NCBI RefSeq assembly: GCF_014138265.1
Contig: NZ_JACGXL010000001.1
Location: 876,525-940,524, forward strand
Direction: 5' to 3'
Source: Dokdonella fugitiva
Lineage (GTDB): Bacteria; Pseudomonadota; Gammaproteobacteria; Xanthomonadales; Rhodanobacteraceae
Length of the DNA stretch: 64,000 bases
Under the pieces are notes generated by a model. The model was given only the letters and a program-made list of their open reading frames with translations. It searched no databases and had not been told where the DNA came from. Within the stretch, counting starts at the first letter, position 1. Every line of letters starts with the position of its first letter. Positions 10,030 to 28,291 of the stretch are shown one piece after another. Both the position numbers and the translations under genes were made by a program.

Positions 10030-12282
10030 ATGACCCTGCATCGCGTTCTTCCGTCCGCCTCGCGGACGGTGCGTCGTGGGCTGCATGCCCTGCTCGCCGC
10101 CGCGGCGGCATGGACCACGCACGCTACCGCGGAGTCCGTGTTCCGCGACGGCTTCGAGCCGCTCGAACCGCCGCCGGCCGTGACGATCCTGCGCGACGAC
10201 CGCGTGGCGACGCTCGAGATGGACTACGACGGCGAGAACGCCTGGGGCCAGTGGTGGACGATGGACGGCAGCGGCCACGACGCCGCCGGCTTCCTCGTCA
10301 GCTGGTGGCCGGCCGGGACCGCCGCGCCGCTGCTGCCGCGACCGGATGCGAAGCACGACGGCAGCCTCGGCTGCCTCGACGGCGCGCACGCGAAGGCGAG
10401 CGCCGCAACCGTGCGCTGGCTCGTCACCGGCAACCGCCGCGTGCAGCTGCAGCCGCTGCTGAACGGTTCGCCGTACCACGTGCGCGTGCAACGCATCGAC
10501 GCCCTCGGCGAGATCATCAGCCTGCCGCGCGACCTCGACTTCGACGGCGGCGACGCGACGCGCGTCGACGCGCTGCGCGCGTCGATGACCCATTTCGACG
10601 ACTTCAACCTGCCGCTCGGTCCGGCCGACGAGACGCTCTGGAACAACGCCACGGTCACCTCGACCGACGCACGCTTCAACCTGTTCTTCGTCAACGACCA
10701 GTACCACGCGCACACGCTGCACGGCACGCGCGTCGACAACACCGGCGACCGCTCGCAGACCTCGCAGCGTTTCCGCAAGCCCGTGCGCATCGAGAACGGC
10801 GTGCGCCGCCGCATCGTGTTCGACATGGACGGCCCGCTCAGCCCACGCTCGGTCTGGTACCTCGACCTCAACCCGGTGCGCACCGACCTCACCGCGCACA
10901 TCGACTTCTTCGACATGGACGGCACCACCGGCCTGCCCGCGGGCACCCTGCGCCTGCGCTCGCAGTTCCAGACCTTCAGCGTGAACATCATCGGCATGGA
11001 CGGCGCATCGCACCAGGTCGCCTCGGTGGACATGGAGGACGCGGGTCGCCAGGCGGTGTCGAACGTGCGCCGCTCGTTCGAGGCGCGCGTCGGCACCGAC
11101 GGCATCGAAGTGCTCATCGACGGCCGCAGCGTCATCGACGCGAGCTACGCGCCGTACGCGCTCGCGCCGGGCGACTACGAGCCGCTGTGGATCGCGTTCG
11201 GCTACAACACGCCGAAGGACGCGGTGCCGTACTACCTCGTGCACTGGGACAATTTCGGCTTCGACGGCCCCGACGTGGACCCGCGCGAGGTGCACAACTA
11301 CGTCACGCGCATCGAGGGCACCGACTATCGCAAGGCCAACCGCGGCAACGGCGACTTCCCGAGCTTCACCGTGAAGATCCCCGACGACCTGCGCCCGACC
11401 GTCGCCGGCGCCACCGCGCAGGCGACGCTCGTGCTCACCTACCAGATGGGCGATTTCTCCAACTTCACGCTCGTGCCGGGCGACCATGTCACGCTCAACG
11501 GCAGCGCGACCTACGCGCTGCCGCAACGCGACAACAACAGTGTGCCGAGCGATCCGGGCCTGCTCACTTGGGGAATTCCCTACACGGTGCAGGTCCCGCT
11601 CGGCACGCTCGTCCATGGCGGTGCGTCGCCGCTCGTCGTCGGCGACAACACGTTCCAGTTCTTCGCCGAGAACACCGGCATCCTCGACGTGCACGTCGAG
11701 GTCGCCTACCCGCCCGGCAGTGCTCCGGCCTACACGCCACCGGCGGCGATCCACCACTTCCCGCTGCACAGCGAACTGCCGCGCCTCGGCCTGCCCGCTC
11801 GCTTCGAGCAGATCGGCGATACCCAGGTCGGTGATTCGCATCGCCTCACCGCCGACCCACCCGCGCGCATCGCCGTATCCGGCGTGGTGCCGCTCAACCT
11901 CGTCGTCGGCAACCACAGCTACGCGAACTGGGCGCCCGAGCTCATGGTGTTCCCGGTGCAGAGCACCGAAGTGTGGAGCACGGGCGGCACCACCGGCATC
12001 GCGACCATCGAGGTGTTCCTGCGCCCGAGCGGCGGCGACGCCGGCACGAGCACGCGCGTGCTCGCGCTCGATACCGGCCGCGACGTCCCCGCGCCGCAAG
12101 GGCGCTACCTGCGCAGCTTCGACAGCCGCGCATTCGCGGACGGCGACTACGAGCTGTTCGTGCAGGCGACCTCCCCGTCCGGCCTCAAGAGCCATCCCAG
12201 CTACGGCGACGAGACCTATCTGTGGGACGCGGCGCAGCTGTCGGGCGCGTATTACCCGATCCAGGTCCACATCCAGAACTGA
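10030..12282 (+). CDS. Large exported protein with a tag-like FRDGFE segment after the signal peptide
   Basis: A 750-residue protein with a signal peptide ending around THATAES, followed directly by VFRDGFEPLEPPPA. The rest is beta-rich, with a fibronectin-III-like strand pattern (YHVRVQRIDALGEI), a LamG- or jelly-roll-like central part, and a C-terminal part close to Ig-like or FN3 domains (VFLRPSGGDAGTSTRVLALD). I recognise no catalytic motif. GGAG lies 7 bp upstream of the ATG. It is probably cell-surface or secreted. The DGFE motif is normally at the C-terminus in its neighbours, so the N-terminal position is odd. Confidence 0.8.
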   Translation: MTLHRVLPSASRTVRRGLHALLAAAAAWTTHATAESVFRDGFEPLEPPPAVTILRDDRVATLEMDYDGENAWGQWWTMDGSGHDAAGFLVSWWPAGTAAPLLPRPDAKHDGSLGCLDGAHAKASAATVRWLVTGNRRVQLQPLLNGSPYHVRVQRIDALGEIISLPRDLDFDGGDATRVDALRASMTHFDDFNLPLGPADETLWNNATVTSTDARFNLFFVNDQYHAHTLHGTRVDNTGDRSQTSQRFRKPVRIENGVRRRIVFDMDGPLSPRSVWYLDLNPVRTDLTAHIDFFDMDGTTGLPAGTLRLRSQFQTFSVNIIGMDGASHQVASVDMEDAGRQAVSNVRRSFEARVGTDGIEVLIDGRSVIDASYAPYALAPGDYEPLWIAFGYNTPKDAVPYYLVHWDNFGFDGPDVDPREVHNYVTRIEGTDYRKANRGNGDFPSFTVKIPDDLRPTVAGATAQATLVLTYQMGDFSNFTLVPGDHVTLNGSATYALPQRDNNSVPSDPGLLTWGIPYTVQVPLGTLVHGGASPLVVGDNTFQFFAENTGILDVHVEVAYPPGSAPAYTPPAAIHHFPLHSELPRLGLPARFEQIGDTQVGDSHRLTADPPARIAVSGVVPLNLVVGNHSYANWAPELMVFPVQSTEVWSTGGTTGIATIEVFLRPSGGDAGTSTRVLALDTGRDVPAPQGRYLRSFDSRAFADGDYELFVQATSPSGLKSHPSYGDETYLWDAAQLSGAYYPIQVHIQN

Positions 12283-12307
12283 GCAGCATGGCCGGCATTC
12301 GCCGTTC

Positions 12308-12387
12308 GTAGGCCGGACGACCGCAGGTCGGCGGGCGCTTCTCGCCGCGCGCCGCGTTCGCCGGCCGCGCGGTGCGCGTCCGGCCTA
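12308..12387. repeat. REP-like inverted pair (GTAG type)
   Basis: The 11-mer TAGGCCGGACG at 12309-12319 and its exact reverse complement at 12377-12387 face each other across 57 bp. The left copy is preceded by G, giving GTAGGCCGGA, the usual start of enterobacterial and GTAG-type REP sequences, and is followed by the small hairpin CGACC-GCA-GGTCG. This is the form of a bipartite REP (BIME) in a 196-bp intergenic gap. No other copy or RAYT transposase gene is seen in the window. Confidence 0.45.
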
Positions 12388-12478
12388 TCCGCGCGCCTGC
12401 GTAGCGGCGAGCCCCCCCGCCGTGTCGATCTCCGGTACTCCCGTTCGTCGAACGAGCGAACTCCCACCGGAACCCGCC

Positions 12479-13138
12479 ATGTCGTCCCGCCTCGCGCTCT
12501 ACGCCCACCCGTTCTCCTCGTACTCGCAGAAGGCGCTCGTCGCCTTCTACGAAAACGACATCCCGTTCGAATACCGCAGCCTCGAAAGCGAGGAGCACCG
12601 CGCCGAACTCGCGCGCCTGTGGCCGATGCGGCGCTTCCCCGTGCTTGTCGACGACGGCCGCACGATCGTCGAAGCGACGACGATCATCGAGCACCTCGCG
12701 CTCCACCACCCGGGCCCGGTGCGGCTCGTGCCGCTCGATCGCGAAGCCGCGCTCGACGTGCGCGCGCTCGACCGCTTCTTCGACAACTACGTGTCGACGC
12801 CGCAGCAGAAGGTCGTGTTCGACCGCCTGCGGCCGGAAGCCGATCGCGATCCCTACGGTGTCGCCGAGGCGCGCGCGATGCTCGACACCGCCTACGCCTG
12901 GCTCGAACGCCACATGGAAACACGCACCTGGGCCGCCGGCGACGCGTTCAGCCTCGCCGACTGCGGCGCGGCGCCGTTCCTGTTCTACGCCGACTGGACC
13001 CAGCCGCTCGGCGACCGCTTCCCGAACGTGAGCGCGTACCGGCGCCGCCTGCTCGCGCGGCCATCGTTCGCGCGCGCGGTCGACGAAGCGCGTCCGTTCC
13101 GGCCGTACTTCCCGCTCGGCGCGCCCGATCGCGATTGA
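12479..13138 (+). CDS. Glutathione S-transferase family protein
   Basis: A 219-residue protein with an N-terminal thioredoxin-fold domain (residues 1-80: LALYAHPFSSYSQKALVAFYEN) and an all-helical C-terminal domain. The glutathione-binding turn is RFPVLVDDG with VEATTIIEHL, close to the usual cis-Pro and ESxxI motifs. Likely catalytic residues are the serines of FSSYS. It should conjugate glutathione to, or reduce, an electrophile in the cytoplasm; the substrate is unknown. It stands alone between the REP-like element and a convergent flavin monooxygenase gene. Confidence 0.88.
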   Translation: MSSRLALYAHPFSSYSQKALVAFYENDIPFEYRSLESEEHRAELARLWPMRRFPVLVDDGRTIVEATTIIEHLALHHPGPVRLVPLDREAALDVRALDRFFDNYVSTPQQKVVFDRLRPEADRDPYGVAEARAMLDTAYAWLERHMETRTWAAGDAFSLADCGAAPFLFYADWTQPLGDRFPNVSAYRRRLLARPSFARAVDEARPFRPYFPLGAPDRD

Positions 13139-13153
13139 TCCGGCGCGACCCGA

Positions 13154-14275
13154 TCAGGCCGTGCGCGCGAGGTAATCGGCGACGTTGTCGGCGAGCACGC
13201 GCGCCGAACGCCCCGCTTCGAACAGATGGCCGCGCAGGCTGTGTACGTAGCCATTGAAGTAGAGCCCGGGCAGCACGGTCGGTTCGCCCGACCGTGCCAG
13301 CGGGTCGTGCACGGCATCCAGTACGCCATCGGCCTCGATCAGCGCGTCGAGGCCGCTCGTGAAGCCGGTCGCCATCAGGATCGCGTCGAACGGTTCGCTG
13401 CGCCCGTCGGCGTAGACCGCGCCGCCGACCGTGAGCCGTTCGAGCGCGGGGCGTACCTGCACCGTGCCGCGCTTCAGCGCCGCGACGAAGCCGACGTCGA
13501 TGATCGGTACGCGCCGGCTCGAATACGGCCACCACGCGGGTCGCGGATAGCCGTGGCGCGCGAGGTCGCCGAGTACGAGTCGCGCGGTCAGGCGCGCGAG
13601 CCGGTCGGCGATCGCCGGCGGCAGCCGGCTCAGCAACATGCCGGTCTTCTGCACCGGCTGGCCGAACGGATCGCGCGGCACGACCGGCGGCGGCGTGCGG
13701 ATCGCGAGCGCGACGAACGCGGCGCCGTGCTCGGCGAGATCGGTCGCGATCTCGGCGCCGCTGTTGCCGGCGCCGACGACGAGCACGCGCCGGCCGGCGT
13801 AGCCGGTCGCATTACGGTAGTCGACCGAATGCACGAGGTCGCCCGTGAACAGCTCGCGCCCGGGCAGTGCCGGCACCACTGGCACGCGGTATTGCCCGGT
13901 CGCGACGACGACCACGCGCGCGCGCCAGCGCGCGTCCGCACCGTCCACGTCCCAGCGCGCGCCGGACCGGCGCAACGCCGACACCGGCGTCAGCGTGCGC
14001 ACGCGCACGCCATGATGGCGCGCGTAATCCTGCAGGTATCCCGCATAGGCGTCGCGCGAGAGGTAGCGCCCGTGCTCGCGCGGTATCGGATAGCCGGGCA
14101 GGCCGGAATGGTCGCGCACGGTGTGCAGGTGCAGCCGATCGTAGCGGCGCGCCCAGGTGCCGCCGATCGCCGTGTCCTGCTCGAGCACGAGCGGGTCGAG
14201 GCCGCGTCCGCGCAGCACGGCCGCGGCGGCCAAGCCCGCGGCTCCGGCTCCGACGACTACGATCTTCTCGTCCAT
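13154..14275 (-). CDS. Flavin-containing monooxygenase-like NAD(P)H/FAD oxidoreductase
   Basis: A 373-residue flavoprotein. The FAD-binding Rossmann motif is at the N-terminus (VVVGAGAAGLAAAAVL). A second one for NADPH is in the middle (VLVVGAGNSGAEIATDL), and the ATG motif is MATGFTSGLDAL. The segment GGTWARRYDRLHLHT matches the region after the FAD motif in YUCCA-like and FMO-like enzymes. It probably hydroxylates or oxidises a small substrate using NADPH and oxygen. GGAGG precedes the start. It is divergent from the diguanylate cyclase gene. Confidence 0.88.
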   Translation of the reverse strand: MDEKIVVVGAGAAGLAAAAVLRGRGLDPLVLEQDTAIGGTWARRYDRLHLHTVRDHSGLPGYPIPREHGRYLSRDAYAGYLQDYARHHGVRVRTLTPVSALRRSGARWDVDGADARWRARVVVVATGQYRVPVVPALPGRELFTGDLVHSVDYRNATGYAGRRVLVVGAGNSGAEIATDLAEHGAAFVALAIRTPPPVVPRDPFGQPVQKTGMLLSRLPPAIADRLARLTARLVLGDLARHGYPRPAWWPYSSRRVPIIDVGFVAALKRGTVQVRPALERLTVGGAVYADGRSEPFDAILMATGFTSGLDALIEADGVLDAVHDPLARSGEPTVLPGLYFNGYVHSLRGHLFEAGRSARVLADNVADYLARTA

Positions 14276-14447
14276 GCATGCCTCCGGAGAGCGCGCGACG
14301 GCGCATCATGCGGCCACATCGTGGATCGGCGGACGCATCCGGCGTACCGTTCGACCGCCGGCGTCGGGCGAGGCGTCGGCGAAGGAAAATCCCTCATGGC
14401 ACCATTCTGGCATGGTCTGCGATCGACGCATCCGCGATCATTGGCGC

Positions 14448-15488
14448 ATGACGACCGTACTCTCTCCTTCCGCCGATTTCGTCGGTCGCCTCAGCGACTC
14501 GATCGTCGCCGCACGTTCGCTCGAGGAACTCGTGCGGCCGCTGCTCGAAATGCTGCAGGCCGTCACCGGGCTCGAATCCGCCTACGTGACCGCGATCGAC
14601 GAGCCTGCCGGCCTGCAACACGTGCTGTTCGCGCGCAACTCGCGCCGGCTGCAGATCCCTGAGGGCCTGTCGGTGCCGTGGGAGGACACGCTGTGCAAGC
14701 GCGCGCTCGAGGAAGGCCGCACCTACACCGACGACGTCGCCGCGTGCTGGGGCGACTCCGACGCCGCGCGGGCGCTCGGCATCGCGACCTACACGAGCAC
14801 GCCGATCCGCACCGACGACGGCGCGCTGTACGGCACGCTCTGCGCGGCGAGCGACGAGCGCAAGCCGCTCGCCGGCGGCGCCGAGCGCGTGCTGCAGATG
14901 TTCTCGCGCCTGATCGGCCAGCAGGTCGAGCGCGAACGCCTCGTGCAGTCGCTGCGCGTCGCCAACGACGCGCTCGCGACGAGCGCGCTGCTCGATCCGC
15001 TGACCGGCCTGCCCAATCGCCGCGCCCTCATGGCCGACCTGCGGCGCCGCGTCGCGCAGGCCGATCGCGAGCATCATTCGCTGCTGATCGCTTTCGTCGA
15101 TCTCGACGGCTTCAAGGCGATCAACGACCGCTACGGCCACGATGCCGGCGACCGTTTCCTGCACGACATCGGCAACGCGCTGGTGGCAACCTTGCGCGCC
15201 GGCGACCTGTGCGCGCGCCTCGGCGGCGACGAGTTCGTCGTGCTCGCCGGCGGACCGCACGAGAGCGATCCCCCGCAAGCCGCGGTCGACGCGTTGCACC
15301 ACCGCCTGCAGGCGGCGACGACACGCCGCTTCGACCTCGGCGACGCCGGCGCGATCGACTACAGCGGCCCGAGCATCGGCGTCATCGCCGCCGATCCCGC
15401 GGTCACCGATCCCGACGTGCTGCTCATGACCGCCGACGCGGCGATGTACCGCGTCAAGCGAGCCCGGCGCGAAGGGCGTGTGTCCTGA
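14448..15488 (+). CDS. GAF-GGDEF diguanylate cyclase
   Basis: A 346-residue cytoplasmic protein with a GAF sensor domain at about 15-165 and a GGDEF domain at about 175-346. The active-site loop is intact (RLGGDEFVVLAGG). The inhibitory I-site RAGD sits exactly five residues before GGDEF, so product inhibition by c-di-GMP is expected. Other hallmarks are DPLTGLPNRRAL and DLDGFKAINDRYGHDAGD. The GAF domain may bind a small ligand or report redox state. It ends at a strong bidirectional hairpin shared with the convergent ankyrin gene. Confidence 0.93.
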   Translation: MTTVLSPSADFVGRLSDSIVAARSLEELVRPLLEMLQAVTGLESAYVTAIDEPAGLQHVLFARNSRRLQIPEGLSVPWEDTLCKRALEEGRTYTDDVAACWGDSDAARALGIATYTSTPIRTDDGALYGTLCAASDERKPLAGGAERVLQMFSRLIGQQVERERLVQSLRVANDALATSALLDPLTGLPNRRALMADLRRRVAQADREHHSLLIAFVDLDGFKAINDRYGHDAGDRFLHDIGNALVATLRAGDLCARLGGDEFVVLAGGPHESDPPQAAVDALHHRLQAATTRRFDLGDAGAIDYSGPSIGVIAADPAVTDPDVLLMTADAAMYRVKRARREGRVS

Positions 15489-15501
15489 GCGAAGCGAAGC
15501 A

Positions 15502-15532
15502 TCGCACCCGCCGGGCGATACGGCGGGTGCGA
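15502..15532. terminator. Bidirectional hairpin terminator
   Basis: TCGCACCCGCC and GGCGGGTGCGA form a perfect 11-bp stem with a 9-nt loop. It lies in the 53-bp gap between two convergent genes (GGDEF protein and ankyrin protein). No long T-run flanks it, but position and symmetry fit a terminator for both strands. Confidence 0.65.
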
Positions 15533-15541
15533 AGTCGCGAC

Positions 15542-17104: not shown

Positions 17105-17303
17105 GACAACCTCCATGCATGGATGCCGAAGGTCCGCAATCCCGGCTGCACAAAGGTCGTGGATGGCCAGCAAACACAAGTGGGTTCAACCCTTCCCGCG
17201 GACCCGGAGGCGGCTTGCGACGCCACCGACACGATAGCACGCGCCGCATCCACGCGGCGCCGTGAAACGCGTCCGCCGATGCATGCGGAGCGACGCGCTG
17301 GGG

Positions 17304-18350
17304 TCAGTCGAACCCATCCACGAACACGTCGTCGCCCGCTACGCTCGCCTGCATCGATACATGGTCCACCAGCGCCGCCTTCGGCGATCCGGAAGTCGCA
17401 TACGAAAAAGTCATCGACACGGCTCTGGTGGCCACTGGCAACGCATGATTCAGAAGCGAATGCTGGTCCCACTCGCCGACGACGATCTGCGCAGCCACTG
17501 CTTCGGTTCCGAGCATGCTTCCCGTGCAGTGTTCGTTGTCGAAGTACGCCAGCGTGAGGAGCGGATCGTCGCTGCCGATCGAACGCTGCGTGAGCCACTC
17601 GACATCGATTTCAGGACTCGCGATGACCACGCATTCGGCAATCGAGGCCTGGTCGCCTGCCCCCGTCACGGAAAGGGCCATCGACCCCGGCGACGGGTAT
17701 CCGTCGGTACCGTCGTACAGCACGCCACCATTGCCGGACCTCGATATCCGCCACGGGGAAAAGAAGGCGTCGAAATCGGCATTTTCCACGCGATTGGCCG
17801 GCGGCGAACTCAGCGGATCCAAGGATCCCGCGGGTACCAGCTCCGCGTGATCCACGTATGCGCCACCGGCAATGTAACTGTCGAAACCGATGCTGAAGCG
17901 AACGCTGTGCGCGGTGGGGTCACCGAAAGGATATCGCGACCGCAACGTCAACCAGCCGCTGAAGTCCCACGGCCCGTCGATGACGGTATTCGAATAGAAC
18001 GGTTGCGTCGCGCAATCTTCGTCGGAATAGAATTCCGAACGGATCAGGCCGTACTGAATGAAATTCAGGAAGTGCTGGTCTTCGAGGCGAACGAATACAT
18101 TCGCCTCGAGGTCGATGCCGGAGTAAGGCACGCATTGATCGAGGCTGGCGGAGCCGGTCGGAGTCTGGAAAGCAGCGGAACCTGCCGTCGGATGACCCGG
18201 ACCCGCCTCCCACACGACCGTGCTCCCGTCGGTCGTGGAAACATTCCAGCCATCAAGCGACATCGCGAAATCGGAATTCGCGAGTAGGTTTTGGGCGGGT
18301 GCGACCGGGCATGGGATCAAGACCAGTGCTGCTACCAACACACGTAGCAT
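17304..18350 (-). CDS. Exported protein with two carbohydrate-binding-like modules and C-terminal FVDGFD tag
   Basis: A 348-residue protein with a signal peptide (MLRVLVAALVLIPCPVAPAQ) and two similar beta-sandwich modules. Module one starts NLLANSDFAMSLDGW, module two NRVENADFDAFFSPW, each with a SAAF- or SMAL-type strand, a paired Cys and a later strand near AYVDHAEL or ALVDHVSM. This looks like an internal duplication of a CBM-like jelly roll. The protein ends in DDVFVDGFD, the tag shared with other exported proteins here. The DNA is clearly less GC-rich than its neighbours, which suggests later acquisition. The start at 18350 is chosen because the signal peptide begins there. Confidence 0.8.
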   Translation of the reverse strand: MLRVLVAALVLIPCPVAPAQNLLANSDFAMSLDGWNVSTTDGSTVVWEAGPGHPTAGSAAFQTPTGSASLDQCVPYSGIDLEANVFVRLEDQHFLNFIQYGLIRSEFYSDEDCATQPFYSNTVIDGPWDFSGWLTLRSRYPFGDPTAHSVRFSIGFDSYIAGGAYVDHAELVPAGSLDPLSSPPANRVENADFDAFFSPWRISRSGNGGVLYDGTDGYPSPGSMALSVTGAGDQASIAECVVIASPEIDVEWLTQRSIGSDDPLLTLAYFDNEHCTGSMLGTEAVAAQIVVGEWDQHSLLNHALPVATRAVSMTFSYATSGSPKAALVDHVSMQASVAGDDVFVDGFD

Positions 18351-18446
18351 ATCGCCGAATCCGCCGTTGAATGGGCCGATCATAGCAGCCAGGAGTCCGA
18401 CCACTCGCGCGGCCATAGCCCGCGGGAATGGTCGCATCACGCGCGC

Positions 18447-18479
18447 TTATCGCGATAAACCGCGTGCATCGCGCGATGC
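18447..18479. promoter_or_regulatory. Two perfect palindromes, candidate double operator
   Basis: TTATCGCGATAA (18447-18458) and GCATCGCGCGATGC (18466-18479) are both perfect palindromes with an ATCGCG core. Their centres are 20 bp apart, close to two helical turns. They lie between two divergent genes for tagged exported proteins (starts 18350 and 18581). A dimeric repressor binding both is a reasonable guess. Confidence 0.45.
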
Positions 18480-18580
18480 CAACGTTTCATTGGCGCCGCC
18501 GTGCGCGTGCGACTAGCGTGGTTCGCATGGGCGGCCGGCACTTCGTCGCCGACGAAAACCCGAGCCGGCGGAGACGCGCG

Positions 18581-18895
18581 ATGAAGAGCGACTGCGGTAC
18601 GAACACCCTGCCCGCGCACCGGCGCCGACGCGCCTGCGTCGCGCTCGCACTGCTCGCGCTGCTCGCATCGTGCGGCGTCGCCGCCGCGCACCAGCTCGTC
18701 GCGCACGCGATCGCGGGCGGAGGCGGCATCAGCCATTCGCCGGGCGGCTGCCGCACGCTCGAAGGCAGCATCGGCGAGACCGCGGCCGGCGTTTCCGCCA
18801 ATGCCGGCTACACGTTGCGCGCTGGTTATTGGGCCGGCGCAGGCAGCGCCCAGCGCGACTCCGTGTTCCGTACCGGCTTCGAGGGGTGCCAGTGA
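18581..18895 (+). CDS. Small exported protein with glycine-rich repeat and C-terminal FRTGFE tag
   Basis: A 104-residue protein with a signal peptide (LALLALLASCGVAAA). The cysteine lies in ASCG, so a lipoprotein is possible but the box is weak. The mature part has the motif GGGGISHSPGGCRTLEGSIGET and YTLRAGYWAGAG, seen in other bacterial exported proteins as GSIGQ and GYxLxGGFW strands. It ends DSVFRTGFEGCQ, a tag copy followed by only three residues. Its stop overlaps the next start by one base (TGATG), so the two are coupled. Confidence 0.75.
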   Translation: MKSDCGTNTLPAHRRRRACVALALLALLASCGVAAAHQLVAHAIAGGGGISHSPGGCRTLEGSIGETAAGVSANAGYTLRAGYWAGAGSAQRDSVFRTGFEGCQ

Positions 18896-19836: not shown

Positions 19837-20464
19837 CGGACGCGGAGCGCGTGGGCGCCGTGCGCAAGCGCCACGCGCCGATCGCGAGCCAGGCGAGGAT
19901 CAACACGATCACCGCCTTCTGGCTGACGCCGCGCGGGCCGACGCGCAGCACCGCATGCGCGAGCAGTGCGAGGAAAGCGAGCACGGCGAGCGGCAGCGCG
20001 GTCGGGAAGCGCGCGCGCCAGTCTACGTCCCGGCGCAGGCGCAGCGATTGCCAGAGCATCGCGAGCGTGACCGAGAGGAACGCGGTCATCGCGGCGAAAC
20101 CGTGGATGCGCGCCTCGAGCGAAGCCGTCCCGGACCGCGTCGCCGATTCGGCGAACGCGGTTACCACGAGCGCGAAGCCACCGAGCGCGAACAGCGCCGG
20201 CGCGATCCGCGCGCGCTCGGGCACGCGCGCGGTGCGGAAACCGAAGCCGAGCGCGACGAGCGCCGCGCCGAGCACGACATAGGCCGCCTTGACGACCGGT
20301 CCGTACGCGCCGACCAGGTAGAAGCTCAGCGGCGCCGTGGTCCAGTCGAGGTCACCGCGCGCGAACTGCACTACGAAGCAGACGAGCGCGAACGCGAGCA
20401 CGCCACCGAAGGCGATCGTACCCAGGCGCGCTGCGCGGTCGTGGCGGTGCGGAGCGATCGGCAT
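19823..20464 (-). CDS. DUF998 family membrane protein
   Basis: A 213-residue integral membrane protein with six hydrophobic segments, starting MPIAPHRHDRAARLG. The pattern, with a short extracellular loop after helix one (RGDLDWTTAPLSFYLVG) and Arg-rich cytoplasmic loops, fits DUF998. Function is unknown. Its last 14 bp overlap the end of the convergent repeat-protein gene. No operon partner is visible. Confidence 0.78.
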   Translation of the reverse strand: MPIAPHRHDRAARLGTIAFGGVLAFALVCFVVQFARGDLDWTTAPLSFYLVGAYGPVVKAAYVVLGAALVALGFGFRTARVPERARIAPALFALGGFALVVTAFAESATRSGTASLEARIHGFAAMTAFLSVTLAMLWQSLRLRRDVDWRARFPTALPLAVLAFLALLAHAVLRVGPRGVSQKAVIVLILAWLAIGAWRLRTAPTRSASVNAA

Positions 20465-20545
20465 GGCGGAGCATTCCTCGGCGCGGGGCGCGGCATCATA
20501 GCGGTTCGCTTCGACGCGCCGTACGCGGCGCCGTAAGATGCACGC

Positions 20546-23197
20546 GTGTCGACGCCTGCCCGCCCCGTGTTCACGTTCGGCGCCTTTCGGCTCGATCCGG
20601 CCGACCGCCGGCTGCGCCGCGACGGCGTGCCGCTCGACCTCCCGCCGAAGGCATTCGACGCGCTGGCGTTGCTGGTCGAACGCGCGGGCCGCCTCGTTTC
20701 CAAGGACGATTTCTACGCGACGCTGTGGCCGCGCACCGTCGTCAGCGAGGCGAACCTCAACAAGTACGTGTGGCAACTTCGCCGCACCCTCGGCGACGGC
20801 GACTGGATCGAGACGGTGCCGAAACTCGGCTACCGCTTCGTCGCGGCCGTCACCGTCGACGACGCGACGCGGGAACTCCCGGGGCCACTCGTCGCGCCGA
20901 TGCCTGCCGTCGACGCGCATGCGCGTGCATCGGCACGGCGCGTGCTCGTCGGAACGATGGCGATCGCGCTCGCTATCGCGCTCGTCGCGGCGGCATGGCT
21001 GCGCCACACGCAGCCAGCGACGACCGCCTCCATCGCGGCGACCGGCACGTCGCCGCTGCCCGTCGCGCGACGCACGCTCGTATTCGCTGCCACCGTACCC
21101 GCCGGCGACGTTTCGCACGCGCTCGCGTCGTCGCTGCCCGCGCTGCTCGCGGAGGAGATGGCGCTGTCGGAGGACCTGCGCGTCCTGCCGCGCGCCGACG
21201 TCGGCCTGCAGTTTCCCGACCTGCTGCGGCCTGCCCGCGCGGACGATCGTGCGACCGGCGAGCGCGACTACGCCCGCTGGCGGGCGCTAGGGGCCGACCT
21301 CGTCGCGTCGACGACGCTCGCGCCCGAACCGGCGCTCGGCGCCGACGGCCTGCGCGTCGACGTGCGCGTGTACGACATCGCACGCGCCGAACTCGTCGAG
21401 CGCATCGGCGTGGCCGGATCGGGCGACCACCTCGACGCGCTCGTCGCACAGGCCGGCGATCGCCTGCGCAACGCGCTCGGACTGAACCCGCTCAGCGCGG
21501 CGCTCGCGCGCGTGCGCCGCGCGACCTCGCCGGCCGACGCCGACGCCGCGCGCGCGTACGGCGAAGCGCTCGAGCTCGAATCCGAGCGCATGGCGAACGG
21601 TGCGCGCGAGCGGCTCGCGTTCGTCGTCGCGCGCAGTCCCGGTTTCGTGCCGGGCTGGATCGAGTACGCGCGCAGCCTCTACGACGGCGGCTTCGCCGCG
21701 CAGGCGACGGCCGCCGCGCGCGACGGCCTCGTGCATGCGGCAGCGGCGCCGCGCGAACTCCGCCTCGCGCTCGAAGCAGTGCAGTACGAGGCGAGCGGCG
21801 CGTGGCCGCAGGCGATCGCGAGCTACGACGCGCTGTACCGCTTCTATCCGGATCGCGTCGACTACGCGTTGCGCCTCGCCAGCGCGCAGCTGTGGGGCGG
21901 CAGGCCGGACGACGCGGATGCACTGCTCGCCTCGCTGCGCCGGCAACCCGGTCTTGCCGACGATGCACGCGTGCTGCTGCAGGACGCCGAGATCGCCAAG
22001 CAGCGCGGCGACTTCACGCGTGCGCGCGCGACCGCGACGCGTCTGCTCGGGCGCGCCGACGAACTCGGCGCACCGCACCTGCGCGCCCGCGCGCTGCTGA
22101 TCCGCGGCACCGCGGCGAACCAGCTCAAGGACCACGACGCCGCGCAGGTCGATCTCGCCGCCGCGCGCGCCGCATTCGTCGCGGCCGACGACGCGTTCTT
22201 CGTCGCGCGAAGCGACGTCCGTCTCGCCCTGCTCGCGCAGAGCCGCAACGACCTCGACGCGGCCGGACAGCGCCTGCGCGCTGCGCTGCCCGTGTTCGAG
22301 CGGCTCGGCGCGCAATGGGACGAGAACATCGCGATCGGCAACCTCGTCAACGTCGACCTGCAGCGCGGCGACAACCGCGAAGCGCGCGAACTGACCGAAC
22401 GCTCGCTCGCGCTGAGCCGCACGATGGGCGATCACGCCGGTGAGAACTGGGCGCTCGCCCAGCTCGCCGGTTTCGCGTTCGCGGCCGGGCAGACGCGCGC
22501 CGCGCTCGCCGCGGCGGACCAGGCGATCGCCGGGTGCCGCGCCGCCGGTGACACGCGCAACCTCGCCTGGACGCTCGCCGACCGCGCGCAGTACCTCGAC
22601 CTCGCCGGCCGCACCGACGACGCCGTCGCGAGCGCGGACGAAGCGCTGCGGCAGGCGCAGGCGATCGACGACGCGACCGCGCAGTCGATCGCGCTGCGCA
22701 CGCGCGGCACCGCCGAGCTGCACGGCGGCCGCGACGATGCCGCACGCCGCGACCTCGAACAGGCGCTCGCGCTCGCCCGGCGCAGCGACGAACCGCTGTA
22801 CGCCGCGCTCGCCGCGCTCGCGCTCGCCGACGCGTCGCTCGAAGCCGGCGACGCGCAGGCCGCCCGCACCAGGCTCGCGCCGGCGATCGCCGAGCTCGAA
22901 CGCAGCGGCGCGCGGGGCGCGCTCGCCCAGGCACGCGCGCTGCAGGCGCGCGCGAGCGCGGCGCTCGGCGAACACGCCGCCGCACGCGAACAGCTCGCCG
23001 CGAGCGAGCGCGGCGCGGCCGGCGCCGACTACGTCGACGCGCTCGCCGCGCGCTACGCCGCGGTGCAACTCGCGGCAGCCGCCGGCGACGGCACTCGCGC
23101 ACGCGCGCTCGCAGCCACCCTGCGCGGCGAGCTCGAGGCGCGTGAGCTCGCGGGCGCCGCGCGGCGCGTCGATGCGCTGCTCGCGGCACGCCGCTGA
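20546..23197 (+). CDS. CadC-like winged-helix regulator with TM helix and C-terminal TPR region
   Basis: An 883-residue protein starting with GTG. Residues 5-105 form an OmpR/ToxR-type winged helix (LDLPPKAFDALALLVERAG, WPRTVVSEANLNKYVWQLRRTLGD, KLGYRFVA). One transmembrane helix follows at about 130-155 (GTMAIALAIALVAAAWL). The remainder, outside the cytoplasm, is alpha-helical with a ToxR-associated segment and many TPR-like units (for example ALLIRGTAANQLKD and ARRDLEQALALARRS). Such one-component regulators sense an envelope signal and bind DNA from the membrane. Its targets are unknown; neighbouring exported-protein genes are candidates. Confidence 0.88.
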   Translation: MSTPARPVFTFGAFRLDPADRRLRRDGVPLDLPPKAFDALALLVERAGRLVSKDDFYATLWPRTVVSEANLNKYVWQLRRTLGDGDWIETVPKLGYRFVAAVTVDDATRELPGPLVAPMPAVDAHARASARRVLVGTMAIALAIALVAAAWLRHTQPATTASIAATGTSPLPVARRTLVFAATVPAGDVSHALASSLPALLAEEMALSEDLRVLPRADVGLQFPDLLRPARADDRATGERDYARWRALGADLVASTTLAPEPALGADGLRVDVRVYDIARAELVERIGVAGSGDHLDALVAQAGDRLRNALGLNPLSAALARVRRATSPADADAARAYGEALELESERMANGARERLAFVVARSPGFVPGWIEYARSLYDGGFAAQATAAARDGLVHAAAAPRELRLALEAVQYEASGAWPQAIASYDALYRFYPDRVDYALRLASAQLWGGRPDDADALLASLRRQPGLADDARVLLQDAEIAKQRGDFTRARATATRLLGRADELGAPHLRARALLIRGTAANQLKDHDAAQVDLAAARAAFVAADDAFFVARSDVRLALLAQSRNDLDAAGQRLRAALPVFERLGAQWDENIAIGNLVNVDLQRGDNREARELTERSLALSRTMGDHAGENWALAQLAGFAFAAGQTRAALAAADQAIAGCRAAGDTRNLAWTLADRAQYLDLAGRTDDAVASADEALRQAQAIDDATAQSIALRTRGTAELHGGRDDAARRDLEQALALARRSDEPLYAALAALALADASLEAGDAQAARTRLAPAIAELERSGARGALAQARALQARASAALGEHAAAREQLAASERGAAGADYVDALAARYAAVQLAAAAGDGTRARALAATLRGELEARELAGAARRVDALLAARR

Positions 23198-23210
23198 GCC
23201 GTCCACGCGG

Positions 23211-24725
23211 TCAGTCGAAGTCGTCGGCGAAGATGAGATCGCCCGTCAGCTTGAACGCGGTGTAGTAGTAAGCGCCGGGTACCGAGTAGTCGTGCGTGTA
23301 GCCGCCGAGCAGCAGGCCTTCGCCGCCGGCGAAGTTCAGCGACATGCCGCGCGTCTCCGCGCTGAGGCCGCCGATCGGCACCTGCGCCGCCTGAACACCC
23401 GGCAGCGACGCGCTGAAGTCGCCGAACGTCGGATCGACCGTCGCCTGCGCGTCGATGCGCACCGCCGCGAGGCGTGCATCGTCGCTCGCTGTGTTCCAGT
23501 AGAACCAGCCGCCGAGCACGACGCGGCCATCGCGCTGCACGACGATGCCGTTCGCCTGCGCGTGCCCTTCGAACGTCGGCGCGATCGAGAAATCGATCAT
23601 CGCGCGGCCATGGCCGCCGAGCACGGACGTGTCGAGCGGTCCACTCGGCAGGAACGCGGCGACGCCCATCTTGTCGACCGTACCACCGAGTGGATGCACC
23701 GTGCCGCCGACCCATACGCGCCCCGTGCGCCGGTCGCGTGCGACGCTCGTCGGCACGCTCGGCGTCGCATTGACGGTCGCCGGATCGAACGCGAACGAGG
23801 TCAGGAACTCCTGCGGAAGATCGGGCGTGCTCAAGGTGACGAGCACGCCGATCGCGCGCGGAGGCGAGCCGGCCACGGCATAACCGGCACCGTAGCAGCG
23901 CGTGATCACGCCTTCCGCGCATGCGCCGAACGCGTACAACTCGCTCGCGACCGCGACGCTGCCGGACGTCAGATCGACGCGGTAGTAGCGCGTGCCGTCG
24001 ACGTCGAGGTGGCTGCCGGCGGGCACGTACGCGCCGGCGTCGTCGAGCATGAACACCGCGCCGTGGCGCAAGCCGTCGCCGCTGCCGTCGCGCACGCTGC
24101 CGGCGACGAGCGCCGCGTCGCGCGGCAGGCCGTTGCGCACGTTGCCGATCGCGACCGCCCACGCGCGGTCGTCCGGCCCGAGGTTCGCCGCGCGCGCGAG
24201 TGATGCCGCGCCACCATTGCCGTAGCCGGCATCGAGCACGCCGTCCGCGGTCAGCCGCCAGGCGGTCATGTAGCTGCCGCTGAGGAACTCGAATTCCTCG
24301 CCGACGACGAGGATCCTGCCGTCGCTCTGCAGGCCGACCGCGTAGGCGGCGAAACTCGAGAACGCGCTGGAGTGGATCACCATCTGCCCCGGCGTGACCG
24401 GATCGCCGAACGTCGCATCGAAGCTGCCGTCCGGCAGCAGGCGCGATACGCCGATCGAGCGATGCCCGCCGTAGATGTCGTTTTCGCTGATGCTGCCGAC
24501 GAGGACGACCCTGCCGTCGGGCTGAACCGCGGATGCGTAGGCGTAGTCGGTGACCGGAGCGCCGGCCGGCGCCGAGCCCCAGAGCAGATAGGAACGTCCG
24601 TTCGCGCCGAAACCGGTATCGAAGCGGCCGTCCTGCGCGACCGCGTTGCCCATGGACGCGAGTGAGAAACCGGCCGCGATGGCGAACCGCCGAAGGGCGG
24701 GTTCGAACCGGAAGGGAGCATCCAT
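23211..24725 (-). CDS. Exported delta-60 repeat beta-propeller with C-terminal FADDFD tag
   Basis: A 504-residue protein with an N-terminal signal (FAIAAGFSLASMGNAVAQ) and delta-60 type repeats of the form RLLPDGSFDATFGD, QPDGRVVLVG, QRDGRVVLGG and DAQATVDPTFGD. These build an extracellular propeller of unknown function. It ends TGDLIFADDFD, a variant of the tag shared with other exported proteins. The start codon lies just downstream of a stem that covers the ribosome-binding site (24730-24771). Confidence 0.87.
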   Translation of the reverse strand: MDAPFRFEPALRRFAIAAGFSLASMGNAVAQDGRFDTGFGANGRSYLLWGSAPAGAPVTDYAYASAVQPDGRVVLVGSISENDIYGGHRSIGVSRLLPDGSFDATFGDPVTPGQMVIHSSAFSSFAAYAVGLQSDGRILVVGEEFEFLSGSYMTAWRLTADGVLDAGYGNGGAASLARAANLGPDDRAWAVAIGNVRNGLPRDAALVAGSVRDGSGDGLRHGAVFMLDDAGAYVPAGSHLDVDGTRYYRVDLTSGSVAVASELYAFGACAEGVITRCYGAGYAVAGSPPRAIGVLVTLSTPDLPQEFLTSFAFDPATVNATPSVPTSVARDRRTGRVWVGGTVHPLGGTVDKMGVAAFLPSGPLDTSVLGGHGRAMIDFSIAPTFEGHAQANGIVVQRDGRVVLGGWFYWNTASDDARLAAVRIDAQATVDPTFGDFSASLPGVQAAQVPIGGLSAETRGMSLNFAGGEGLLLGGYTHDYSVPGAYYYTAFKLTGDLIFADDFD

Positions 24726-24729
24726 GGCG

Positions 24730-24771
24730 CGATCCTCGCGAGCGACCGTGCGGTCGATGCGTCGAGGATCG
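24730..24771 (-). promoter_or_regulatory. 5'-leader hairpin covering the ribosome-binding site
   Basis: On the minus strand CGATCCTCG pairs perfectly with CGAGGATCG. The second arm contains the only Shine-Dalgarno-like sequence (GAGG) and ends 4 bases before the ATG at 24725. A smaller stem, GACCG-CA-CGGTC, sits inside. Folding would block ribosome access, so control by temperature, a protein or translation of an upstream region is possible. Confidence 0.4.
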
Positions 24772-24933
24772 TCCGCACCGGCGCCGCCCGTCCTTCCCGG
24801 AATGTTCGTGTTCGCGTGGATTTTTCGTTGCGCCCCGGCGGAAACGCGCCTGTCAACGATAGTGGCGTCGTCGCGTATATGCTTCGCCGGCAGGCCTGCC
24901 GTCGCGGCGGGTCCGGCGATCCCGGGGGAATCG

Positions 24934-25710
24934 ATGGAAACGAAACACGTCGTGGGCGGGCTGCTCGCCGCCGTCCTGCTGCTGTTCACCGTGCACTGGC
25001 TGCGCGATCCGCTGCGCACCGCCTTGCCGTTCGGCACGACCGACCTCTCGTCGGTGCAGGCGCAGCTGAAACGGTTGACGCCCGCGGATCGCGCGCTGGT
25101 CGAAGCCTACGTCAAGCGCAGCAACGGCGACGTGCTGCCGGCGAAGTTCGCCGACCCCGACCAGCCGTTCACCGCGCGCACGTTCGGCGACGCGATCGCG
25201 CTCGAGAAGGCGTGGAGCGTCAAGCGCGGCAAGATGGACGCCGAAGCCGCGCAGCGCCAGGCCGAACGCGACGCCGCGATGGCGCCGCTGCGCGACGCGG
25301 TCGAGGCCGGCGTCGCGCGCGCGGAAGTGCTCGCACCGAGCGACCTCGTCGCGCCACCGGATCCGTCGGCGCCGGTCAAGCAGGCGCTGCCGAGCGAGGA
25401 TGCGACGGTGTTCGTCGTCACCGTCTCGCTGCACAACCTCGGCAGCAAGACGATCACCGCCGTGCAGGGATCGCTCGAGGCGCACGACCGCGAAGCCTAC
25501 CTGCCGCTCGACCTCTGCTGGATCGATCTCGCCGATCGCGAGCCGATCGAACCGGCGAGCCGCGCGCAGGTCCGCTGCGCGAACCCGAACCGGCACGTCA
25601 GCGAACAGCAACGCGCGTTCATCGACGACGACTCGGGGCGCTTCACGCTCGTATGGAACCCGAAACGGGTCGTGTTCGCCGACGGCTCGGTGCTCGAGAG
25701 CGGGTTGTGA
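24934..25710 (+). CDS. Membrane-anchored hypothetical protein
   Basis: A 258-residue protein with one N-terminal transmembrane helix (VVGGLLAAVLLLFTVHWL) and a soluble remainder that should be periplasmic. The middle is helical and charged (EKAWSVKRGKMDAEAAQRQAERD) and the C-terminal part looks like an immunoglobulin-like beta-sandwich (VFVVTVSLHNLGSKTITAVQGSLEAHD). I do not recognise a defined family. GGGGGAA precedes the ATG. It is followed by a methyltransferase gene 55 bp downstream on the same strand. Confidence 0.7.
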   Translation: METKHVVGGLLAAVLLLFTVHWLRDPLRTALPFGTTDLSSVQAQLKRLTPADRALVEAYVKRSNGDVLPAKFADPDQPFTARTFGDAIALEKAWSVKRGKMDAEAAQRQAERDAAMAPLRDAVEAGVARAEVLAPSDLVAPPDPSAPVKQALPSEDATVFVVTVSLHNLGSKTITAVQGSLEAHDREAYLPLDLCWIDLADREPIEPASRAQVRCANPNRHVSEQQRAFIDDDSGRFTLVWNPKRVVFADGSVLESGL

Positions 25711-25765
25711 CGCGCGTGCGGCCGTTGCGGCCGGCATCGCCGCCTCGACGCCGCAGAGGATCCGC

Positions 25766-26653
25766 ATGACCCTGCCCCGCCACGCCCGCTACGACGGCCC
25801 CGTGCTCACGCGCGAGGTCGCCGACGCGATGCGCGCCGCATTCGCCGCGGGGCATGCGGCCTGGTCGGGTTCGTTCGATCTCGGCCGCAGCCGCGGCGAA
25901 GCGACGCTGTCGACGACGGCATGGCGCTGGCGCGATCGCGACTATCCGTGGCCCGACGCGCTCAAGGAACGCACGATCTACGTATGGGACGGCGCGGCCT
26001 TCGTCGCCGCGCACCGCTACGACGGCGCGCTCATCAAGCTCGTGCCGACCGAATGGGGCGCGCCGACGTTCGAGATCGACGGCATCAAGATGCTGCCGAC
26101 GTCGCAGCTGTCGCCGTATGCCGACGCGCAGCGCAAAGTGGCGCTGGTCGCGCCGCGTGGCAAGCACGTGCTCGACACGTGCGGCGGCCTCGGCTACTTC
26201 GCGCGCGCCTGCCTCGAGGACGGCGTCGGCAGCGTGCACTCGTTCGAGAAGAACGCGGACGTGCTCTGGCTGCGCAGCCTCAACCCGTGGTCGCCCGATG
26301 TCGCCGACGACGACGCGCGCGGCCGCCTGCTGCTCGAGCATGCGGACGTGTCGACGCGGATCGGCACGCTGCCCGACGCCGCCTACGACGCGATCCTGCA
26401 CGACCCGCCGCGGTTCGGCATCGCCGGCGAGCTCTATTCGCAGGCGTTCTACGACGAACTCGCCCGCGTGCTGCGTCCGCGCGGGCGCCTGTTCCACTAC
26501 ACCGGCACACCGAACCGCAAGACGAGCGGGCGCGACGTGCCGCTCGAAGTCGCGCGGCGGCTCGCCAAGGCGGGCTTCGCCACCGAGCTCGCGCTCGACG
26601 GCGTGCTCGCGAGCAGGGCGCCGGGCACGCGCGCCGCGTCGCGCGCGCGCTGA
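25766..26653 (+). CDS. SAM-dependent methyltransferase-like protein
   Basis: A 295-residue protein with a Rossmann methyltransferase core. The SAM-binding motif is VLDTCGGLGYFARACLE near residue 135, and motif IV is DAILHDPPRF followed by LYSQAFYDELARVLRPRGRLFHYTG. This set resembles the predicted methyltransferases of the COG2521 type and the spermidine-synthase superfamily. The DPPRF motif hints at modification of a base or small molecule, but the substrate is not known. The N-terminal 100 residues form a separate beta-rich domain. Confidence 0.8.
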   Translation: MTLPRHARYDGPVLTREVADAMRAAFAAGHAAWSGSFDLGRSRGEATLSTTAWRWRDRDYPWPDALKERTIYVWDGAAFVAAHRYDGALIKLVPTEWGAPTFEIDGIKMLPTSQLSPYADAQRKVALVAPRGKHVLDTCGGLGYFARACLEDGVGSVHSFEKNADVLWLRSLNPWSPDVADDDARGRLLLEHADVSTRIGTLPDAAYDAILHDPPRFGIAGELYSQAFYDELARVLRPRGRLFHYTGTPNRKTSGRDVPLEVARRLAKAGFATELALDGVLASRAPGTRAASRAR

Positions 26654-26660
26654 GCACGCA

Positions 26661-27212
26661 TCATCCTTTCGGCCAGCCGACCGCGAGGTCGAAGGTGACG
26701 TCGCAGCTCATGTCGGTGTCGTTCATCGGCGCCTCGCGTGCTTCGGTCGTCACCGCGCCACTCATGCGCGCGGCACCCTTCGTCGTGAACGCGACGTGGC
26801 CGTTGCCGCCGTCGAGCCCGGTCAGCGTGCCGTCGGGGGCGACGTACATGAGGTTGACGATCGTCGCCATGTCGAGCTCGCCGCCGGTGTGCGCGATCTC
26901 CATCCAGCCGGCCGCGGTCGCGCCGCGCTGCGCTTCGACGGCGTCGCCGCGCGGGCTCGTGAACGTGCTTTCGCCGGGTGCCGCGGCGCATGCGCTGCAT
27001 TTCGCGAGCGCACCGCGATCGAGCGGCTTCGCGGTCAGGTAGATCGTCGTCGTGACGACGCCCTGCGCGTCGCGCGCGTCCTGGAACGCGATGCCGTCGG
27101 TGAAGGCGAGGCGCTTGCCGTCGCGTTCGCACCACCCCTTCACCGAATCGGCACGGGCGGGCGATGCAAGCACGAGCAGGAGCATGGGCAGGAAGGCGGA
27201 GACGATGCGCAT
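26661..27212 (-). CDS. Exported hypothetical protein
   Basis: A 183-residue protein with a signal peptide (FLPMLLLVLASPARA). The mature part has four cysteines (KGWCERDG, KCSACAAAPG, MSCDVTF), so disulfides in the periplasm are likely. Weak beta-barrel character appears in the second half (YVAPDGTLTGLDGGNGHVAFTT). No family is recognised. It is convergent with the methyltransferase gene, 7 bp apart. Confidence 0.68.
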   Translation of the reverse strand: MRIVSAFLPMLLLVLASPARADSVKGWCERDGKRLAFTDGIAFQDARDAQGVVTTTIYLTAKPLDRGALAKCSACAAAPGESTFTSPRGDAVEAQRGATAAGWMEIAHTGGELDMATIVNLMYVAPDGTLTGLDGGNGHVAFTTKGAARMSGAVTTEAREAPMNDTDMSCDVTFDLAVGWPKG

Positions 27213-27337
27213 GGGGGAGTCCGGTCGCGATCCCCGGCGGGGACCTCTTCTATCGGCACGCACGAAGGCGACGACGCGGGCCACTCGAGGTGCGCGGGCG
27301 AACCCGCGCCGTGCCGGACATACGTCCCGGCAGCATG

Positions 27338-28291
27338 TCACGGCGCCTCGTGCCGACGCGGCTGCGCGCGTTGTGGCGCGGCTTCGCCCGGCTCGAAGCC
27401 GTCGTCGAAGATCGCTTCCGGGTTCGGCACGAACGCGAGGAACGTACCGCCCGAGATGCCGCCGTCGGCCCCGTCGGCGAGGGTGCCGAGCAGCGCGCCG
27501 GTGGCGCGGTCGTAGCGGCGCACGCGATTGCCGGCGAGCACGAGCAGGCTGCCGTCGGGCGCGACGGCGAGGCCGGTCGGCCGGTTCAACCCGCTCACGA
27601 GCGTGCCGACGAAGGCGCCGGTCGCGGCATCGAAGCGGTAGATCGCGCCGCTGCCCTCGCCGCCGACGAGGATCGTCGCGCCTTCGTCGACGATGCCGCG
27701 CGTCTCGAACAGGCCGCCGCTGCCGCTCGCCACGAACGCGGCCTGCACCTGCGCGGTCGCAGGGTCGATGCGCGCGACGCTGCTCGAATCGTAGCCGGGC
27801 ACGTAGAGCAGGCCCGCGTCGCTCATCATCAGGCCGTTGTCGGCGCCGAGCAGGCCGCTGTCGGTCGGCAGCAGCGTGCCGATCACCGAGCCGTCGAGCG
27901 GATCGAGTTCGAGCACGCGGCTGGTGCCGTAGCTCGCGACGTAGACGCGACCGTCGCTGCCGAACGCGAGGCCGGTCGGGTCGACGTCGGCGTCGAGCTG
28001 GGCGAACACGTCGACGAACGCGTAGCCGGCATGCGGGCGGTAGCGCTGGACCTGGTCGTCCCGCTCGCTGACGACGTAGAGCAGCCCGTCGGTCGGGTTC
28101 ACGCGTACCGCCTGCGCGCCGTGGACATGCCCTTCCTGCTCGAGCTGGCGCAGGAACGCGCCGCTGCAGGCGTCGTAGATCGCGACGTTGTCCGAGAAGT
28201 AGCCGCTCACGAGCAGGTGCCAGGCACAGGTCGCCTGCGCGCTCGGCGTCACGAACGGCAGCAGCAGGGCGGCGGCGATGCGGATCGACAT
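27338..28291 (-). CDS. Exported NHL/YncE-like beta-propeller with near-C-terminal FDDGFE tag
   Basis: A 317-residue protein with a signal peptide (IAAALLLPFVTPSAQAT) and a six-bladed propeller of YncE or NHL type (HLLVSGYFSDNVAIYDACSG, GLAFGSDGRVYVASYGTSRVLELD, LGADNGLMMSDAGLLYVPGYD, RGIVDEGATILVGGEGSG). The tag AIFDDGFEPGEA comes before a 17-residue Arg-, Pro- and Ala-rich tail. It is a close paralogue of the gene at 49456-50739, which has another C-terminal domain instead of the tag. Both have a purine-rich tract on the coding strand upstream. Confidence 0.87.
   Translation of the reverse strand: MSIRIAAALLLPFVTPSAQATCAWHLLVSGYFSDNVAIYDACSGAFLRQLEQEGHVHGAQAVRVNPTDGLLYVVSERDDQVQRYRPHAGYAFVDVFAQLDADVDPTGLAFGSDGRVYVASYGTSRVLELDPLDGSVIGTLLPTDSGLLGADNGLMMSDAGLLYVPGYDSSSVARIDPATAQVQAAFVASGSGGLFETRGIVDEGATILVGGEGSGAIYRFDAATGAFVGTLVSGLNRPTGLAVAPDGSLLVLAGNRVRRYDRATGALLGTLADGADGGISGGTFLAFVPNPEAIFDDGFEPGEAAPQRAQPRRHEAP

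Follow-up and report, generated by a model that had tools for sequence, protein, structure and literature searches.

A linear peptide tag on unrelated exported proteins of Dokdonella fugitiva and its co-distribution with a type II secretion system

It is an open question how type II secretion systems (T2SSs) select the folded proteins that they carry. In the published view their substrates have no common linear sequence, the known signals being composite and structural (PMC7949064). In contrast, the element described here is one linear sequence found on dozens of proteins. It was reported in a preliminary description of a 64,000-nucleotide stretch of the Dokdonella fugitiva genome (the window) as a heptapeptide, such as VFRDGFE, in five exported proteins with no other resemblance, and it was followed through the 4.77-Mb host genome, of which the window is a part, and through sampled genomes of the order Lysobacterales. 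The comparisons show a real, genome-wide tag on unrelated proteins with predicted export, largely co-distributed with one T2SS, here called T2SS-A. We consider it about an even chance (roughly 0.5) that the tag would serve as a linear, largely position-independent address for T2SS-A, carried by exoproteins whose folding takes place in the periplasm.

Compared with the tripartite sorting signals (LPXTG, PEP-CTERM, GlyGly-CTERM and MYXO-CTERM), the tag lacks the helix, the basic end and the restriction to the C-terminus. The C-terminal domain of type IX secretion substrates is a folded unit of about 80 residues, found in Bacteroidota and removed at the surface; it is a common C-terminal module that routes many unrelated proteins through one outer-membrane system, as the present tag may do. 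The GlyGly-CTERM/rhombosortase system is similar in that a short tag occurs on many unrelated exported proteins in a many-to-one relation (PMC3237569, PMC13393428), and its phylogenetic profile ranks T2SS genes highly (PMC3237569). However, GlyGly-CTERM is tripartite (PMC11980579), C-terminal and cut by a rhomboid protease, whereas the present tag is N-terminal or internal too; GlyGly-CTERM was also not tied to any T2SS subclass (PMC3237569), and it requires a further signal to cross the outer membrane (PMC3237569, PMC13393428). MYXO-CTERM, the partner of myxosortase, resembles the tag in being clade-restricted and present on dozens of proteins per genome, and its carriers are moved by the T2SS; one internal MYXO-CTERM tag was explained by gene fusion (PMC11980579). 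It differs in its invariant Cys, transmembrane helix and Arg-rich end, and in its predicted lipidation and cleavage by myxosortase (PMC11980579). Finally, loop 3 of PelI, an exposed T2SS signal, is flexible, comprises nine residues and contacts GspC and GspD (PMC7949064); the present tag, also of nine residues, would be similarly exposed and flexible and may bind the same two proteins.

The tag and the proteins that carry it

A DNA pattern for [VI]F-x-D-G-F-[DE] (the strict pattern) matched the host genome 97 times and its reversed form, the control, once, and all 97 matches translate to the tag peptide in some frame of the surrounding sequence. Although the pattern did not demand it, Asp stood at position -2 in 78 of the 97, and the tag was therefore taken to be the nine residues D-x-[IV]-F-x-D-G-F-[DE], the positions flanking it being otherwise variable. 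When Asp at -2 was required and positions 3 and 4 were allowed to vary (the relaxed pattern), 165 matches were found against none for the reversed control. The 96 tagged host proteins form 48 homology groups, the biggest with 31 members. The number of matches greatly exceeds chance. The proposal in the preliminary description of a functional signal common to non-homologous exported proteins is supported, and the signal occurs widely in Lysobacterales.

Most tags (79/97) lie within 25 residues of the C-terminal end, 11 of them at the very end; 5 immediately follow the signal peptide, and 13 lie elsewhere, some apparently at domain borders. C-terminal tags are followed by 0 to 23 residues, with no fixed geometry. 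None of these 79 tails holds a 12-residue hydrophobic stretch after the tag or a basic cluster (at least three K/R in the last 8 residues), and a transmembrane-like 17-mer occurs within the last 60 residues of 2 of the 79 proteins. The varied position of the tag and the lack of a hydrophobic or basic segment behind it suggest a peptide that is recognised, not one that marks a cleavage site. In the AlphaFold model of one tagged beta-helix protein, pLDDT is below 50 from residue 282 onward, including the tag, and the model is uninformative here. Opposite-strand pairs of tags about 70 to 100 bases apart were also seen in the host genome (Table 1), as if neighbouring convergent genes both carried the tag.

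Any novelty lies in the signal; the machine is a canonical T2SS. We call the signal new because eight tag 26-mers, searched against NCBIfam at E up to 10, found no model on the tag (one unrelated match, E 0.37, fell outside it) and because seven exact tag strings were absent from the open-licence literature searched, which is not proof of novelty. No such tag appeared in the titles or abstract starts of the best-ranked open-licence papers on sorting signals, T2SS signals and the tagged genera, and a tag-profile search of the PDB gave chance matches only (best E 0.17).

By predicted family, the carriers belong to extracellular kinds of protein. The family scan took 92 of them (95 are at least 60 aa long, and three were dropped for size) and matched 86 Pfam and 56 NCBIfam families. 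The best 25 of the 86 include beta-helix, FG-GAP, subtilase (S8), DUF5122 and Calx-beta, and the best 25 of the 56 include choice-of-anchor Q (12 carriers), J (3) and D (1) as well as three families with a single carrier each, namely chitinase, PHA depolymerase and phosphocholine phospholipase C. Under a home-made and lenient rule, a signal peptide-like start was found within the first 80 codons in 32/38 tagged genes against 57/134 untagged neighbours; a limit of 40 codons gave 19/38 against 41/134, a limit of 150 codons 36/38 against 76/134, and an earlier version of the rule 56/71 against 12/23 window controls. The C-terminal signal of type I secretion is by definition without an N-terminal signal peptide, and most of the carriers tested differ from this in having a signal peptide-like start. 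In genome G064, a homologue of DUF1501 copies, assigned by eye from its N-terminus to the twin-arginine translocation (Tat) type, bears a relaxed tag, and so the tag is probably not restricted to Sec export.

Distribution of the tag and of the type II secretion systems

Strict counts ranged from 0 to 119 per genome in 299 sampled genomes of the order (reversed control 0 to 2) and from 0 to 3 in the 271 genomes outside the order in a class sample of 274; among the genomes sampled, the tag is confined to one order. Elsewhere the same peptide is also encoded by AT-rich codons. When named genomes were scanned independently for D-x-I-F-x-D-G-F-[DE] followed by a stop codon, at least 117 stretches matched, 80 of which were listed. 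Nearly every listed match with a name below class level belongs to Lysobacterales, Dokdonella, Marinicella, Tahibacter, Pseudofulvimonas, Rhodanobacteraceae or Lysobacteraceae; many others carry only Gammaproteobacteria, Proteobacteria or Pseudomonadota as a name, and there are two misfits, both metagenome-assembled genomes, named 'Bacillota' (a match in a 13-aa frame) and 'Alcanivoracaceae'. Of 81 distinct matches among the stretches retrieved, 75 close a frame of at least 100 aa, and a signal peptide-like beginning is present in 46 of the 54 such frames that are complete upstream. One false positive of the relaxed pattern, the conserved segment LDALFRSDFEDGSLEQ or a near form of it, inflates the counts in four genomes (L161, L163, L164 and L151); its protein is presumably CcmB-like. 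For a possible S-layer link (NpdA), the published organism list includes Rhodanobacter and Lysobacter besides Dokdonella and Tahibacter (PMC10765051).

The tag is largely co-distributed with T2SS-A, family f8 being an exception. Among the 249 genomes at least 90% complete, T2SS-A is present in 65 of the 68 with at least three strict tags and in 20 of the 181 others. T2SS-A was called by a GspD profile, which told it apart from other clusters, together with canonical gspG outside families f1 and f2; the gspG part of the rule was added after the data had been seen, and the GspD profile alone gave 60/68 against 20/181. Four genomes were removed from the T2SS-A list by hand (G230, G257, G275 and G156), two by synteny and two on account of a spacing of about 4 kb between gspG and gspD within a single contig. 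Fifteen of the 20 T2SS-A genomes with fewer than three tags belong to genus g31, the remainder being G064 and G167 (g55), G017 (f7), G082 (f8) and G139 (f10), and when g31 and f8 are set aside T2SS-A is present in 63/63 tagged genomes against 4/147 others. The T2SS-A genomes of f1 (10/10) and f2 (2/2) are all tagged, and the 142 genomes of these two families without T2SS-A average 0.25 matches. At the genus level, 76 of 85 genera are concordant, with p = 3e-5 on within-family label shuffling (3 of 100,000 trials), a permutation that controls phylogeny by family only and counts sister genera apart, so that there are fewer independent events. The co-occurring protease or transport family foreseen in the preliminary description would on its transport side be a T2SS, encoded outside the window; the protease side was not searched for.

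Other markers gave a less clear picture. GspG scores are bimodal, with canonical GspG (E 5.8e-47 or better) in 32/33 chosen tagged genomes against 7/38 chosen untagged ones and, at a completeness of at least 95 among the 299 genomes, in 51/52 with at least four tags against 41/173 others. Because of these 41 genomes, canonical GspG alone was rejected as a partner marker, and synteny explained much of the surplus: seven canonical-GspG genomes that lack strict tags were inspected, and another cluster is present in five of them, whereas the remaining two have the operon of the tagged genomes, namely G064, with the H-type tags described below, and G058, with a few relaxed matches. PF03934 (GspK), which cross-matched other helix-hairpin-helix proteins, was replaced as T2SS marker by GspG (TIGR01710) and a GspD N-domain profile. 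A second GspD alone was not diagnostic, since more than one full GspD also occurs in G074 and in the other-cluster genomes G061, G040 and G275.

T2SS-A consists of two conserved loci, gspCDEF and gspGHIJKLMN, which make up a complete canonical system, and in the host genome gspC to gspN are all present in them. Host C, D, F, G, K and N were found by profiles (PF11356 plus PDZ, TIGR02517, TIGR02120, TIGR01710, NF037980 and PF01203, respectively), and host gspE, H, I, J, L and M by tblastn using the proteins of relatives. In the tagged genomes inspected, gspGHIJKLMN occupies mostly one conserved place beside bioA, rsmE and cysQ and is not adjoined by gspD, gspE or gspF, and the further GspD of tested genomes with this operon belongs to a conserved gspC-D-E-F locus beside rho, trxA and ftsEX (neighbour names were read from the sequences). 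Across 15 such loci, gspD was called in 15, gspC in 13, gspE in 13 and gspF in 9. GspC of T2SS-A has a T2SSC region and a PDZ domain in the host and in G064, and both regions are, by eye, common to 13 aligned GspC proteins. The host gspG-N operon is preceded upstream by two tagged genes (L121:2142-3941 and 5206-6288), of which one bears the variant DRIHADGFD, and this may be chance; relaxed matches in the host occur about once per 29 kb.

T2SS-A is distinct from the Xps-type T2SS, which nearly every genome tested has too. This second system, whose GspL is PilN/PilM-like, occurs in the host genome (L123, C4:155001-175000) and in G063 (L124), and a divergent Xps-type GspG was found in 68/71 genomes tested (none in G001, G019 and G230). 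Another cluster, with gspD and gspE beside gspG, occurs in G230, G061, G275, G040 and G075 (gspF called in 4/5); in untagged genomes we take such clusters to be Xcs-like, and the five (L130, L131, L134, L135 and L136) look separately acquired. G025, G044 and G270 have two canonical GspG genes each.

A variant of the tag bears on how it may be read. G064, of genus g55, has no strict tags and 17 relaxed matches (control 1), 12 of which are D-x-I-F-x-H-G-F-[DE]. All 12 of these H-type tags lie in long frames, 10 of them at most one residue from the C-terminus, and they belong to eight homology groups. The switch of the same residue from D to H in unrelated proteins implies one shared putative reader. 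All three g55 genomes (L408, L409 and L190) have Glu at two places of the GspD N-domain where Asp is present in 32/32 others and Asn in 31/32 others, and the loop that is SDRAGN-like in nearly all other T2SS-A genomes read is SERKNE. Co-variation of GspC/GspD with the H-type tag is a weak lead, drawn from one genus in which the tag type comes from one of three genomes.

Several observations weigh against a link between the tag and T2SS-A. First, the f8 genomes G063 (10 strict matches), G171 (7), G122 (4) and G097 (3) have no T2SS-A gspG or gspD and only the Xps-type system, and their matches include plain C-terminal tags on exported-looking proteins. Strict matches in f8 number 0 to 11 in 6 genomes with T2SS-A and 0 to 10 in 33 without it, overlapping ranges that show no clear association within this family; the f8 tags would be either read by the Xps-type system or something else, or left over from a recent loss of T2SS-A. 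Second, genus g31 has T2SS-A in 28/30 genomes, yet the mean there is 0.8 strict matches; some g31 tags are real but degenerate, such as the N-terminal DEVFRDDFE in G037. Third, the co-distribution could reflect shared ancestry, with perhaps one switch each in f1 and f2 and a minimum of about three independent events. Genomes of other orders lack the tag, so T2SSs elsewhere work without it, and the T2SS was the sole candidate partner profiled across the order. Finally, a same-enzyme comparison of DUF1501 (PF07394) gave no support, as 0/50 copies (50 of 53 places) were tagged; two tagged DUF1501 copies are known, in G064 and G097, and the comparison neither supports nor refutes the link.

Tagged genes in the window

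The five heptapeptides are where the preliminary description had placed them (Table 1), and a six-frame scan of the window with the wider pattern [VILM]F.[DTSN][GDNS]F[EDQ] found these five matches only. Their positions within the proteins also hold, except that IFDDGFE had been put at about 20 residues from the end and lies 17 residues from it. The carriers are indeed non-homologous, since the best between-protein blastp match among the five had an E of 0.14 and was a 12-residue match consisting of the tag itself. With Pfam at E 0.001, three of the five had no match.

Table 1. Tagged genes of the window (window positions) and opposite-strand tag pairs elsewhere in the host genome (contig:position of each tag).
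Feature	Coordinates	Strand	Remarks
Exported protein, 750 aa, N-terminal tag	10030..12282	+	No Pfam or NCBIfam match
Tag VFRDGFE	10138..10158	+	Immediately 3' of signal peptide; E instead of D at -2
Exported protein, at most 378 aa	17304..18440	-	No Pfam or NCBIfam match
Tag VFVDGFD	17307..17327	-	Exact C-terminus; D-D in front
Small protein, 104 aa from ATG at 18581	18581..18895	+	Longest open reading frame starts at 18428; no Pfam or NCBIfam match
Variant tag VFRTGFE	18863..18883	+	End 3 residues further on; D at -2
DUF5122/delta-60 repeat protein (beta-propeller type)	23211..25037	-	Longest open reading frame 608 aa
Variant tag IFADDFD	23214..23234	-	Exact C-terminus; D at -2
NHL/beta-propeller-like protein	27338..28501	-	Longest open reading frame 387 aa
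Tag IFDDGFE	27392..27412	-	17 residues short of C-terminal end
Tag pair	C1:570356/570456	opposite	
Tag pair	C4:399380/399450	opposite	
Tag pair	C1:1384523/1384607	opposite	
Tag pair	C4:264653/264732	opposite	

Proposed recognition and alternative readings

If the tag is an address for T2SS-A, its carriers would be exported by Sec or Tat and would then fold in the periplasm with the tag left exposed. The exposed tag could be bound in the periplasm by T2SS-A, with the PDZ/HR region of GspC and the N-domains of GspD as the most likely contacts, and this binding would load the protein for outer-membrane transport through T2SS-A. Where two T2SSs are present in a cell, the substrates of the one would thereby be separated from those of the other by the tag, whose cleavage would not be required. 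A dependence on the PDZ domain of EpsC has been described for the secretion of VesB, whose signal is PDZ-dependent and graftable (PMC12369372). Somewhat more tentative is the fuller proposal that a nine-residue code, placed at either end or between domains, directs dozens of unrelated proteins, already folded, to one of the two T2SSs of a cell, and that code and reader have evolved together, as the change from D to H in G064 may suggest.

The main rival to recognition by T2SS-A is that the tag retains proteins at the cell surface. After secretion by either T2SS, carriers would dock non-covalently to a surface receptor, and the link to T2SS-A would be indirect. This would suit the many carriers of choice-of-anchor families (12 Q, 3 J and 1 D among the 92 scanned), relatives of which elsewhere bear anchors such as PEP-CTERM or LPXTG. 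It would also suit the f8 genomes that are tagged without T2SS-A, and GlyGly-CTERM and MYXO-CTERM proteins are both surface anchored and T2SS-linked (PMC3237569, PMC11980579). However, there is no known candidate for the receptor (no search aimed at one was made), the tag is not followed by a membrane or lipid anchor, and chitinase, PHA depolymerase and phospholipase C, families typically released as exoenzymes, are tagged as well. We regard surface retention as rather unlikely.

A chaperone or quality-control signal of the periplasm, outside the T2SS, with for example a secretion chaperone or a PDZ protein of the DegP kind as its reader, would fit a short acidic-aromatic peptide that lies mostly at free termini. 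It is nevertheless improbable, as DegP-like proteases are widespread whereas only part of one order has the tag (no search was aimed at a chaperone specific to the order). A tag for processing by a protease or transpeptidase dedicated to it would be consistent with the 79 of 97 tags near the C-terminus and their short, variable tails, and the preliminary description had likened the tag to C-terminal sorting signals that are cleaved or anchored, as by a sortase or exosortase. That comparison is not supported by the 79 tails, all without a hydrophobic or basic segment and without fixed geometry over their 0 to 23 residues, or by the 5 tags behind signal peptides and 13 elsewhere, and processing is improbable, although the genomes were not searched for protease or sortase families. 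Chance or homology alone has a negligible probability, for although one homology group holds 31 of the 96 tagged proteins, it is refuted by the reversed controls (97 against 1 and 165 against 0), and the 48 groups and the same peptide written in AT-rich codons elsewhere also speak against it.

If the tag does address T2SS-A, the likely cargo of one T2SS could be listed from sequence alone, given about 100 to 165 copies in one genome, its recognition would be testable by point mutation, and nine residues might route enzymes out of the cell. Whatever the mechanism, an order-wide sorting tag for which there is no curated model would be useful in annotation.

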